From an uncultured Pelagibacteraceae bacterium (GTDB lineage: Bacteria > Pseudomonadota > Alphaproteobacteria > Pelagibacterales > Pelagibacteraceae), in assembly GCA_902595725.1 (NCBI GenBank), contig CACJRJ010000008.1, forward strand, positions 1 to 52,542: a stretch of DNA of 52,542 bases. The letters are read 5' to 3'. The notes under the pieces are model-generated. The model searched no databases, was not told where the DNA came from, and saw only the letters and a list, made by a program, of their open reading frames with translations. Within the stretch, counting starts at the first letter, position 1; the number at the start of each line of letters is the position of its first letter. Positions 49,012 through 52,542 of this stretch are shown here, piece after piece. The position numbers and the translations under genes were made by a program.

Positions 49012-49215
49012 ATGAATAAAAAACTATTAAATTACATAATATTTATAATTATAGCTGTAATTTTATTATATTTTGCAAGACACAATTATAGAGATTTTAA
49101 TATTAATAAAGCAATTTCTGCATGTGTTTTAGCTCAAAAACAAACCTCTGCTAATTTTGATAAAGATGCAGTTAAGAAAAAATGCGAAGATAAAATTAAC
49201 AAATCACTTAAATAA
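49012..49215 (+). CDS. Small membrane-anchored protein
   Basis: This 67-residue protein has an N-terminal hydrophobic anchor (residues 8-21, YIIFIIIAVILLYF) and a charged domain after it with two cysteines (SACVLAQ and KKCEDK) that could pair if periplasmic. An AT-rich TATAAT box at 48988-48993 lies about 20 bases upstream, so it may have its own promoter. It is divergent from the thiolase gene. No family recognised. Confidence 0.65.
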   Translation: MNKKLLNYIIFIIIAVILLYFARHNYRDFNINKAISACVLAQKQTSANFDKDAVKKKCEDKINKSLK

Positions 49216-49334: not shown

Positions 49335-50024
49335 ATGGATCAAAAATCATTATCATTTAGCGATATAATTTCATCAAGTGCTATAAATTTAAGTTCTGGA
49401 TCATCCATTACTGTAGTTGATATTTTTATTGCATTATTAGCAAGTTTAATATGTGCTGGGATTATTTCTTATACATACAAGTACTCATATCAAGGTGTAC
49501 TTTATCAAAAAAGTTTTAATTTATCATTGATACTTATATCATTAATAACAACAGCTGTTATCATGGTTATAAGTGGTAATTTGGTTTTATCTCTTGGTAT
49601 GGTAGGAGCATTATCAATTATAAGATTTAGATCTGCTGTAAAAGATCCAATTGATATTGTTTTTATGTTTTGGGCAGTTTCTATAGGTATAGCAAATGGT
49701 GTGGCTGCTTTTAAAGTTTCATTTGTAACATCAATAATAATTTCTGTTGTAATAATTTTGATTAAAAAACTACCTCTATCTTCAAAACCATTTATTTTAA
49801 TTATTAAAACAAATTTAGGAAATGAAAAAGTTCTAAATAAAATAGTATCAGCTGAAACCAAGCAATATTTTTTGAAAAGTAAAAATATAAATGGAAATCA
49901 GCAGGAACTGATTTTTGAAATTAGAATAAAAAATGATTTACAAATTACTAAGAAAATTTCTCAGATAAGCGGTGTAAAAGATGTAAATTTAATATCATCT
50001 AGTAATAATGTTCTCGACAACTAA
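49335..50024 (+). CDS. DUF4956 family membrane protein
   Basis: This 229-residue protein has about four membrane segments in residues 28-145. GNLVLSLGMVGALSIIRFRSAVKDPIDIVFMFWAVSIGIANG is the strongest DUF4956 signature. A cytoplasmic C-terminal domain of about 80 residues follows, of ferredoxin-like ACT-type pattern. In many bacteria DUF4956 genes neighbour CotH-like and VTC-type polyphosphate-polymerase genes. The CotH-like gene is present here (overlap of 17 bases), but no VTC gene is seen in the window. Function is unknown. Confidence 0.82.
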   Translation: MDQKSLSFSDIISSSAINLSSGSSITVVDIFIALLASLICAGIISYTYKYSYQGVLYQKSFNLSLILISLITTAVIMVISGNLVLSLGMVGALSIIRFRSAVKDPIDIVFMFWAVSIGIANGVAAFKVSFVTSIIISVVIILIKKLPLSSKPFILIIKTNLGNEKVLNKIVSAETKQYFLKSKNINGNQQELIFEIRIKNDLQITKKISQISGVKDVNLISSSNNVLDN

Positions 50025-52542
50025 AAAAAGAAAAAAAAGTAATTATCTACTAACCTCTATTGTAATATTATTTGTACTTTCCATTTCATCCATAGCTTAT
50101 TTTTCATACAAGTATCATAATTATGAATCTTATAAGAAAATTTTAGAAATAAATAATTCGTTAAATAGAGAAAATATTTCAGGGAAATTATATTATTTAG
50201 CCTTTAAGATAATAAGAAAGGTATCTGATGAATTAAATATAAATAGAGTTTATAAAAAAATTAAGTACCAGAATCAGTCAAAAAACATAAATCTGCAAAT
50301 GAGTGGAGCAGATGTAAGTTTTATTCAAGAGCAGATTGAAGTTTTTAAAAATAAAGGTTTTATAAAAGATGAGCTTAATTTTTGGCGAAAAGCAAAATTA
50401 AAGTTAGGTGAAAAAGAATACTTAGTTGATTTTAAATTTCACGGAACATCAATAACTCCTCTTAGACACGATCACTTTAGTTTACGGATAAAATACAAAA
50501 AAGGACAAAAAACTAACCAAATAAGAGAATTTAATCTAATAAAAATTTTTTATGGTAGTGATGAAAATATTCCTACAGTAATTTTTAATAATCTAGCTAA
50601 AAATTTTGGTTTATTATCACCATCTGGAGAAACTATAATTTTAAAAATCAATGGAGTTAATGTTGGTTTTTATTATTTGCAAGAAAGACATAGTAAAGAA
50701 TGGTTTGAAAAAAATGAAATCACAAATTATTCTATTCTAAAAAATAATGATGATTGGGATAAAAAAAATGAAGCAGGACATTATTCTGATCATGATCTAG
50801 ATGAAAAAAATATTGAAATATCTGGAAATGGTTCCGATCCAGCCATAGCTTATGGCGCTATAAAGAATCTTTTTGATTCAGTAAAAGAAAGAAATTTAGA
50901 AAATATATTTAAATTAATAGACAGAGATTACTTTGCTAAATATTTAGCAGTTTTGTCAATAATAAATGATAATCACAATATTACAGGAGACAATGTAAAA
51001 TATATATACGATTTTACTAATGGAAAATTTAAAATTCTTTTTAGACAAGAATCTGGTGGTGTTATACCTATAAATTCGTTAGTTGAAAATTTTAACAGAT
51101 CTTTATTTGAAAACAATGTCTGGAACGAGCCGTACTCTACGCTTACTCAAGATTTATTTAAACTAATTATCTCAGATAAAAATTTTAGATTTCAAAAAGA
51201 TTTATATTTAAAAAAAATTTTGAATAATAAAGAAAGTATAATTTCTGAAGCAGAAAATGCTTATGATGAGGCATTTAAAAATTTGATTTTTAGCGATGTT
51301 AAACTTCGACATCAACAATATCTTAAAATAAAATTTTTTAATGATTTAAATCATAACTTTGAAAAAACAGATAAATATTTAAATTATTCTAAAGTTTATG
51401 CCTCGATAGAAAGAAAAAATAATCTTAATATATTATCTGTTACAAATGATAGTTTTTCACCAATTAAAATAAAGGCATTTTTTTTTGATGACGAAAATAA
51501 AAAAGTAGTAAATTCTGACGAATACATTGTACCAGCAATAGATTACATTTTTGACCTTAAAAAAGAGAATATTTCAAATAGAAGTTTAATAATACCTGGA
51601 GAAAAATTTTACTATACTAACTATAAAATAAATATTTTCTCAAATTCAAAAATTAATAAAATAGAATTTCAAAATTTAGTTACACAAAAAAAAATTCCTG
51701 AAGAACATGTATATTTGAATGAAATAAAAAATTTTGATTTATCAAATAAAAAATCTTTAATAATTTCTCTTAAAAATAACGGTTTAAAATATGATTTAAA
51801 TGACACAAATCTTTTAATAAAAAAAGGTGACTATATAATTTCAGAAAATTTAATAATTCCTTCTGGAATTGATACTACTATAGAAAAAGGAACAAATATT
51901 TTTATAAAAAAAAATATATCAGTACTTTTTAAGGGTGATTTATTAGCAAAAGGAAGTGAAAATGAAAAAATTAAAGTTAAAAATTATGATAAAAATTTTC
52001 CTTTTGGTACATTTGCAACCGTTTCTCAAAATAAAAAAAGTAACGTCATTTTAGAGAATTTTGAAATCGAAGGCGGAAGTGAAGCAATAGTTGAAGGAAT
52101 GGTTTTCTTGGGTCAATTGTCAGTTCATAATTCCAATGTAAAAATATTAAAATCGAAAATTAGTAATAGTATTTCGGATGATGGAGCCAACATAAGAAAT
52201 AGTAATATTGAAATATTAAATACAGTTTTCTATACTAATAAATTTGATCAATTAGATTTAGATTTTTGCAATGGAATTTTAAAAAATAATTTATTTATTG
52301 CAAAAAAAAACAGTAATAAGCTAATAGATAGAAATGAATTAAACTTAAATGGTGATGGAATTGATTTAAGTGGCTCTAAAGTAATAATTAATAATAATTC
52401 AATTATAAGCTCTAGTGATAAAGCTATTAGTGTAGGTGAAAAATCTGTTGCAATAATTAAAAATAATTTTTTTGAACAAAATAATATTGCAATTGCTATA
52501 AAAGATGAATCAAAAACTTACATATTTGATAATGAGTTTAAT
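50008..52542 (+). CDS. CotH-like protein with C-terminal parallel beta-helix (partial, runs off window)
   Basis: An open frame of 845 codons begins at ATG 50008 and has no stop before the window end. An N-terminal membrane anchor (about residues 13-33) follows a basic KKRKKS. Residues about 140-360 resemble the CotH kinase-like domain: VDFKFHGTS, LRIKYKKG, NGVNVGFYYLQERHSKEWF, and IINDNHNITGDNVKYIYDF followed by FKILFRQESGG. The last 200 or so residues are repeats of short beta strands with Asn ladders (NSNVKILKSK, NSNIEILNT, KVIINNNSI, VAIIKNNFF), a right-handed parallel beta-helix. It overlaps DUF4956 by 17 bases. It is probably anchored outside the membrane; whether it phosphorylates protein is unknown. 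Confidence 0.75.
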   Translation, partial: MFSTTKKRKKSNYLLTSIVILFVLSISSIAYFSYKYHNYESYKKILEINNSLNRENISGKLYYLAFKIIRKVSDELNINRVYKKIKYQNQSKNINLQMSGADVSFIQEQIEVFKNKGFIKDELNFWRKAKLKLGEKEYLVDFKFHGTSITPLRHDHFSLRIKYKKGQKTNQIREFNLIKIFYGSDENIPTVIFNNLAKNFGLLSPSGETIILKINGVNVGFYYLQERHSKEWFEKNEITNYSILKNNDDWDKKNEAGHYSDHDLDEKNIEISGNGSDPAIAYGAIKNLFDSVKERNLENIFKLIDRDYFAKYLAVLSIINDNHNITGDNVKYIYDFTNGKFKILFRQESGGVIPINSLVENFNRSLFENNVWNEPYSTLTQDLFKLIISDKNFRFQKDLYLKKILNNKESIISEAENAYDEAFKNLIFSDVKLRHQQYLKIKFFNDLNHNFEKTDKYLNYSKVYASIERKNNLNILSVTNDSFSPIKIKAFFFDDENKKVVNSDEYIVPAIDYIFDLKKENISNRSLIIPGEKFYYTNYKINIFSNSKINKIEFQNLVTQKKIPEEHVYLNEIKNFDLSNKKSLIISLKNNGLKYDLNDTNLLIKKGDYIISENLIIPSGIDTTIEKGTNIFIKKNISVLFKGDLLAKGSENEKIKVKNYDKNFPFGTFATVSQNKKSNVILENFEIEGGSEAIVEGMVFLGQLSVHNSNVKILKSKISNSISDDGANIRNSNIEILNTVFYTNKFDQLDLDFCNGILKNNLFIAKKNSNKLIDRNELNLNGDGIDLSGSKVIINNNSIISSSDKAISVGEKSVAIIKNNFFEQNNIAIAIKDESKTYIFDNEFN

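Follow-up and report, generated by a model that had tools for sequence, protein, structure and literature searches.

A probable DUF4956–CotH-like–VTC operon at a contig end of a Pelagibacteraceae genome and its possible role in the cell envelope

The stretch of DNA analysed here (the window, 52,542 bases) is the entire contig C8 of an uncultured Pelagibacteraceae bacterium (assembly GCA_902595725.1), and its sequence stops inside a gene for a CotH-like protein with a long beta-helix. This gene and the DUF4956 gene upstream of it would belong to a DUF4956–CotH-like/beta-helix–VTC operon, the third gene of which lies on contig C38 of the same assembly. Our tentative reading, which we hold to be quite possible if short of probable, is that the operon encodes a membrane module linking polyphosphate synthesis in the cytosol to a glycan of the envelope, and that the CotH-like part of this module is not a normal ATP-dependent serine kinase. 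The observations behind it are the gene order in relatives, the co-occurrence of the genes, the protein folds, the residue replacements and the separate origin of the cassette. A first-pass annotation of the window, made from the sequence letters, had spoken of a possible cell-surface or polymer-linked system, and a polymer-linked surface role is still the reading that is best supported.

A VTC gene on a second contig probably completes the operon

The DUF4956 and CotH-like open reading frames (ORFs; Table 1) overlap by precisely the 17 bases given in the first-pass annotation. Comparison with locus L075, from the Olavius sp. associated proteobacterium Delta 1, indicates that about 53 codons are missing from the 3' end of the CotH-like gene. 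The assembly (G000; 1.08 Mb, 84% complete, bin contamination 0.04) holds a single match to the VTC domain (PF09359), at C38:11-598 (89 bits versus a cut-off of 23), in a gene truncated at the contig start that lacks about 27 codons by comparison with L075. The size of the genome would suit a member of SAR11. Thus, the earlier remark that no VTC gene is in view is correct for the window, where its absence is an effect of contig C8 ending at position 52,542, and not for the genome; the reading that there is no VTC gene was rejected. Since both genes are cut, the VTC match is the only one in the assembly and the two genes share L075 as their nearest relative, we infer that C8 and C38 join, with the CotH-like gene followed by the VTC gene; the codons missing by comparison with L075 put the gap at roughly 235 bases.

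The operon recurs in the family

We searched 147 sampled genomes of the window's family and found a DUF4956 match in 25 and a VTC match in 24, with both present in 22 versus an expectation of 4.1 (p 7e-21, with relatedness ignored). Contig ends truncate four of the five exceptions to this co-occurrence (G052, G119, G122 and G124), while the fifth (G146) is a degenerate match: this weak DUF4956 match, at G146:C1:244798-245091, contains four internal stops and is probably a decaying copy. When the loci themselves were read (31 places in the family, window included), 23 were seen to carry the DUF4956, CotH-like and VTC genes in that order, three of them (L045, L046 and L057) with one intervening gene. 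The remaining eight are cut by contig ends, and among these L049 has VTC before CotH; L212 and L213 are further CotH-VTC pieces that are likewise cut. These counts bear out the clustering of the three families on which the first-pass annotation had relied, and, with DUF4956 in 25 and VTC in 24 of the genomes and 22 shared, they contradict its view that such a protein is unusual for a streamlined genome. One genome of about 1.2 Mb (G105) even encodes three cassettes belonging to different branches (L054, L055 and L056). The spread over 25 of the 147 genomes, as judged by the DUF4956 match, together with these three cassettes suggests a general envelope device that has been gained repeatedly.

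In one branch of cassettes a protein of about 340 residues is encoded between DUF4956 and the CotH-like gene (L045:7013-8041 and L046:5822-6844), and at the end of L052 a protein of about 340 residues, cut, stands before CotH; searches of Pfam and NCBIfam with the L045 copy gave no match. The flanks were also scanned (86 proteins out of 163 eligible neighbours at L045-L060): 11 of these belong to the sugar epimerase/dehydratase family and two are GT2 proteins, which weakens the proposal that the cassette always resides in sugar loci.

A wider set comprised the best 80 of at least 589 loci ranked by similarity to the window DUF4956 protein (the named loci), which therefore lean towards the window's type. 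VTC is present in 71 of them and a CotH-like gene in at least 48, the latter being a lower bound as the profile was derived from the window's family and many of the contigs are short. The greater constancy of VTC is what would be expected if the system served polyphosphate storage or phosphate homeostasis and the surface protein were incidental to it; the presence of CotH at all 23 family places left uncut by contig ends speaks against this, and we regard it as very improbable.

The putative surface protein couples a CotH fold to a beta-helix

The first-pass annotation had described a CotH-like protein with an anchored N-terminus and a long parallel beta-helix, and each of these elements was recovered. 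The hydropathy maximum (2.31) falls at residues 14-32, inside a helix spanning residues 5-35 of the predicted model. The Pfam CotH model (PF08757) has no match at E<=1 in the window protein or at E<=0.001 anywhere in the window genome, and it matches five of the 28 aligned family proteins at E<=0.1; plain membership of the protein in PF08757 was accordingly rejected. A profile of the 28 family proteins nevertheless matches the Bacillus cereus CotH structure (5jd9/5jda) at E 6.9e-17 (HMMER). The AlphaFold model (mean pLDDT 74.9) contains both a CotH core and a solenoid: residues 90-460 superimpose on 5jd9 with Z 30.0 and an rmsd of 3.1 over 329 aligned residues, and Foldseek recovers the CotH kinase fold at 1.2e-12, the kinase part of the model being not independent of known kinases in that 11 of the 16 sequences supplied to the predictor were CotH kinases.

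The beta-helix is matched by PF13229 (27.2 bits versus a cut-off of 25.9) and is modelled with a pLDDT that is mostly near 90 or higher and drops at residues 768-779. Among the matches listed, its fold aligns at Z 19-23 with alginate epimerases and lyases, tailspikes, NosD and others, many of which act on glycans. In the family alignment, 14 of the 265 positions of the beta-helix region (581-845) are conserved at 90% or more versus six of the 371 in the kinase part, so that the former accounts for 14 of all 21 such positions. The near-invariant positions of the beta-helix are D, K, E, S and G residues between 725 and 833, while in the kinase part N215 and E226 are invariant across the 28 proteins. 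Six proteins searched against NCBIfam gave no match at E<=0.01, and 222 pattern matches in viral contigs included none related to the CotH pair of the window and L075.

The beta-helix branch has lost the first essential aspartate

In Bacillus subtilis CotH, the D228Q and D251A variants are each inactive and both Asp residues are thus required, according to the accessible part of the report (PMC7821199). The B. cereus chain has a pair of Asp residues with the same 23-residue spacing as the B. subtilis pair, and HMMER aligns these with His323 and Gln347 of the window protein, a departure from the CotH kinases that the first-pass annotation had missed. Because His and Gln replace both essential Asp residues, the window protein is probably not an ordinary ATP-dependent kinase.

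We compared 80 CotH-like proteins, 34 with a beta-helix and 46 without. Column 323 could be placed in 32 of the former, where it is His in 30, Gln in one and Glu in one, and in 44 of the latter, where it is Asp in 42 and Ser in one, the remaining protein being a fragment. His is likewise present in the two unplaced proteins that lack a beta-helix, L069 and L062, the latter truncated at a contig end; L069:7567-9090 (G104) is a cassette CotH-like protein of 507 residues that keeps the His without any beta-helix. In a tree of 67 CotH-like rows, the beta-helix type forms one side of a branch with 100/98 support, which points to a single historical split and not to many independent changes. This split also coincides with the hosts, His being found mostly in Gram-negative bacteria and Asp mostly in Bacillota. 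Column 347 behaves differently: Asp is kept in 26 of the 28 family proteins, and Gln, in a common RQE, is found in the window and L075 proteins. Comparing the Asp and His branches would directly test the idea that CotH proteins at the surface act as kinases at all.

These residues bear on the alternative that the operon encodes an ordinary extracytoplasmic CotH-type serine/threonine kinase module that regulates a polysaccharide of the envelope, in line with the proposal made for the Pel loci of streptococci. The CotH fold of the predicted model agrees with it, as does the fact that the three families are those of SIR_1592-1594 (PMC12345266) and of the Pel accessory genes (PMC7112168), as far as the available portions of these reports describe them. 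With His and Gln at positions where the B. subtilis variants are inactive (PMC7821199), and with no PelG in the 147 family genomes, we consider it quite improbable.

Pyrophosphatases accompany some cassettes

A pyrophosphatase-family protein is tied to three of the 31 family cassettes (L065, L057 and L050); the window, where the operon is cut, has none. In L065:6122-9106 (G068) the pyrophosphatase domain (PF00719, 106.3 bits) is fused behind the beta-helix and is the only PF00719 match of its genome. In L057:4012-4620 (G078) a free pyrophosphatase (100.9 bits) lies between CotH and VTC, and in L050:10018-10647 (G110) one (100.6 bits) directly follows VTC. The latter two small genes cluster with CotH through the fused domain of L065; they were considered as pieces of the beta-helix, which was rejected as they match PF00719 and neither the beta-helix nor the kinase-core profile. 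All three pyrophosphatases share the acidic positions of the GDGDxLD and DxxxxDxK motifs, which we take to be catalytic in this family. A profile built from them detected no other in the family loci and one ORF in the named loci (L145, on the opposite strand). By eye, the three proteins have starts resembling signal peptides, and because these cassette pyrophosphatases look secreted they hint that pyrophosphate or polyphosphate may be handled outside the inner membrane, which makes the proposed connection between polyphosphate and envelope testable.

These proteins add to the plausibility of a bolder scheme: polyphosphate made by the VTC protein would be exported through an MgtC-like DUF4956 and would serve as the phosphate donor of a His-type phosphotransferase of CotH fold, which would phosphorylate an envelope glycan held by the beta-helix, while the secreted-looking pyrophosphatases would clear the short products. 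The conserved His may act there as a base or a phospho-carrier, in a compartment beyond the inner membrane that presumably lacks ATP. We judge this likelier for the small genes of L050 and L057 being pyrophosphatases with signal-peptide-like starts, and still rate it as rather improbable; if true, it would make the CotH proteins of the beta-helix branch a new class of transferases that work outside the cytoplasm and are driven by polyphosphate.

Another possibility is that the CotH domain is a dead-kinase scaffold and that the active component is the beta-helix, as a lyase, epimerase or binder of glycan, with VTC and DUF4956 regulating or powering a surface-glycan pathway and no transfer of phosphate outside. 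The replacement of both essential Asp residues in the window protein, the concentration of near-invariant residues between 725 and 833 of the beta-helix and the many glycan-active enzymes among its nearest folds are all in keeping with this. A mere scaffold, however, would not need an invariant N215 and E226 or an Asp kept at the second column in 26 of 28 proteins; L069 retains the cassette without a beta-helix, and the secreted-looking pyrophosphatases of three cassettes point to phosphate chemistry outside. On balance we deem it unlikely, if still deserving of serious consideration.

DUF4956 may resemble MgtC in its plan

The window protein matches DUF4956 (PF16316) with 43.5 bits versus a cut-off of 30.6. 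In its predicted model (pLDDT 87.2), a helix at the N-terminus is followed by five membrane-type helices (27-145) and a C-terminal ACT/ferredoxin-like domain (about 150-223). This last part, the one that was compared, gives Z of about 10 with many ACT/ferredoxin-like domains, including the C-terminal domain of MgtC (2lqj). An hhalign comparison with MgtC gave 86.5% probability (E 4.6e-6, 153 columns) with alignment A6, and for two other DUF4956 alignments the values were 61.9 and 71.7%; column shuffling (30 replicates) reached at most 2.4% and the reversed control 0.8%. The MgtC template comprised only eight of 28 sequences, picked by motif, and a long-type MgtC set gave 0.1%. The window genome has no match to PF02308 (MgtC/SapB), and the DUF4956 profile retrieved nothing convincing from the PDB sequences (best E 0.31). 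The profile comparison with MgtC is thus suggestive of an MgtC-like membrane-protein plan for DUF4956, a relation already published for a streptococcal homologue, as stated in the accessible part of that report (PMC12345266).

The cassette was acquired separately from those of its relatives

The nearest relative found for all three proteins is the L075 locus, with identities of 48% for DUF4956 (221 bits), 39% for the CotH-like protein and 44% for VTC (174 bits, the next being 132 bits, in a set of VTC proteins from the family loci and the 80 named loci). The best DUF4956 protein of the window's own family ranks 78th of 105, below all 77 from the named loci, a ranking biased by the selection of these loci for likeness to the window and for which a tree is the better test. 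In the DUF4956 tree (50 proteins: 26 from the family, 23 from named loci and the window), the window groups with L075 at 100/96 and the 26 family proteins stand apart from it in sets of 15, 8 and 3; the CotH-like tree unites the window and L075 at 100/100. Since a single deltaproteobacterial locus gives the best match to each of the three genes, the window cassette is, on these comparisons, an acquisition separate from those of its family relatives, a difference in origin that had gone unnoticed in the first-pass annotation.

The same affinity to a deltaproteobacterial locus, along with the position of both pieces at contig ends, raises the question of whether a cassette from another organism entered through a binning or assembly artefact. 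Several observations argue otherwise. The GC content of the DUF4956 and CotH-like genes (0.25 and 0.23, with third positions at 0.12) matches or lies below that of the two neighbours measured, so that both seem adapted to their host; on C38, the product of the second gene downstream of VTC shares 46-67% identity, along part of the protein, with proteins from seven family genomes; and the bin contamination is low, as given above. We find such an artefact barely credible.

Table 1. Features of the operon at the end of the window
Feature	Positions	Strand	Remarks
DUF4956 gene	49335-50024	+	229 aa ORF
Overlap of the DUF4956 and CotH-like genes	50008-50024	+	17 bases, from ORF coordinates
CotH-like/beta-helix gene	50008-52542	+	845 codons, 3' end cut by contig end
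N-terminal hydrophobic anchor helix	50020-50112	+	residues ~5-35; hydropathy and model
CotH kinase-fold domain	50275-51387	+	residues ~90-460; fold, profile and alignment columns
Right-handed beta-helix	51766-52542	+	residues ~587-845; Pfam and fold

Just upstream of the operon, an ORF of 67 residues (49012-49215) with a membrane-type helix and two Cys residues has no Pfam match over the cut-off.

A proposed membrane module between polyphosphate and envelope glycan

In the arrangement that we favour, a module linking polyphosphate synthesis to an envelope glycan, the VTC protein would use ATP to make polyphosphate on the inner side of the membrane. Its family keeps charged positions shared with VTC4: 17 columns are invariant in 25 VTC sequences, 12 of them charged, and the family profile matches VTC4 at 2.7e-14. 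The ACT-like domain of DUF4956, presumably lying in the cytosol, might hold or gate VTC, and DUF4956 may also provide a passage for the chain. On the outer side would be the anchored CotH-like protein, its beta-helix binding an envelope glycan and its kinase-fold domain positioning, sensing or transferring phosphate on that glycan. The polyphosphate product, the orientation, the glycan target, the link between inner and outer parts and the joining of C8 to C38 are the conjectural components of this arrangement, and a direct coupling of the inner polyphosphate arm to the outer arm, in particular, is conjecture.

A number of observations sit poorly with it. The ends of C8 and C38 do not overlap and share no k-mer of 15 or more within 400 bases; homologues of the protease-like gene of C38 (L172-L177 and L182) have no adjoining window gene that would place the cassette, and no relative has the same flanks. 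The nearest upstream genes in the window, named by reading their ORFs, encode a thiolase, an FAD oxidoreductase-like protein and a TPP enzyme, and are not polysaccharide genes; most of the 86 scanned flanking proteins are not sugar enzymes, and L047 and L057 adjoin ilvC/ilvN-type genes. L069, with its His and no beta-helix, truly breaks the pairing of the two, and the missing Asp might be replaced in function by D321, which lies two residues ahead of His323 in both the window and the L075 protein. Finally, no comparable effect is told for deletion of the polymerase gene of Streptococcus intermedius in the available part of the report on its pel locus (PMC12345266); the effect on the glycan may therefore not require the VTC arm.

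Comparison with known systems

A search of the literature by title retrieved no SAR11 paper on DUF4956, and the matches for CotH with SAR11 or with beta-helix were unrelated; nothing joined SAR11, polyphosphate and CYTH, and we found no worked-out function for the trio of polymerase, MgtC-like and CotH-fold proteins. CotH and the VTC domain are mentioned together in the consulted part of PMC2879425.

The Bacillus CotH kinase (5jd9/5jda) shares its fold with residues 90-460 of the window protein, which differs in adding an anchor, a linker and the beta-helix and in having His and Gln at the essential Asp positions. The yeast VTC complex likewise combines a membrane partner with a VTC domain, that of VTC4, which shares conserved charged positions with the proteins described here; the partner here would be MgtC-like by its plan, and we are aware of no protein in yeast that corresponds to the kinase-fold protein on the outside. 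The L075 locus has the same His and Gln replacements and provides the nearest relatives of all three proteins, but its gene order is CotH-VTC-DUF4956; on reading the sequence, it adjoins an apparent polysaccharide flippase gene.

A close parallel in composition is the trio SIR_1592-SIR_1593-SIR_1594 of the S. intermedius pel locus, which comprises an MgtC/ACT membrane protein, a polyphosphate polymerase domain and a secreted CotH-domain protein. By the accessible account, deletion of the CotH gene lowered Pel and that of the MgtC/ACT gene raised it, both reducing aggregation (PMC12345266). The same three families are encoded together in relatives of the window; the differences are the order DUF4956-CotH-VTC of the window's family, a beta-helix instead of FN3, His and Gln at the kinase positions, and the lack of a detectable PelG. 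PelG (PF16933), the one Pel component searched for, is found neither in the window genome, which is 84% complete, nor in the 147 family genomes. The Gram-positive Pel accessory set of cotH, PPP, DUF4956 and DUF4832 (PMC7112168, as described in the available part) similarly shares three families and differs in its lineages and in its association with Pel.

The trio itself is thus already known from Gram-positive Pel loci, where the consulted portions of both reports present it as an accessory of Pel biofilm loci (PMC12345266; PMC7112168), and its occurrence here is without PelG. The authors of the S. intermedius study, in the part available, did not find the three-gene synteny outside the Pel locus (PMC12345266); this negative does not hold for the more distant homologues described here. 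Given the effects on Pel in S. intermedius and the presence of the trio in a family with no PelG in any of the 147 genomes sampled, we read the module as a general envelope-glycan accessory with an inner arm that would make polyphosphate. Its outer arm probably does not act as an ordinary kinase where it belongs to the beta-helix branch.

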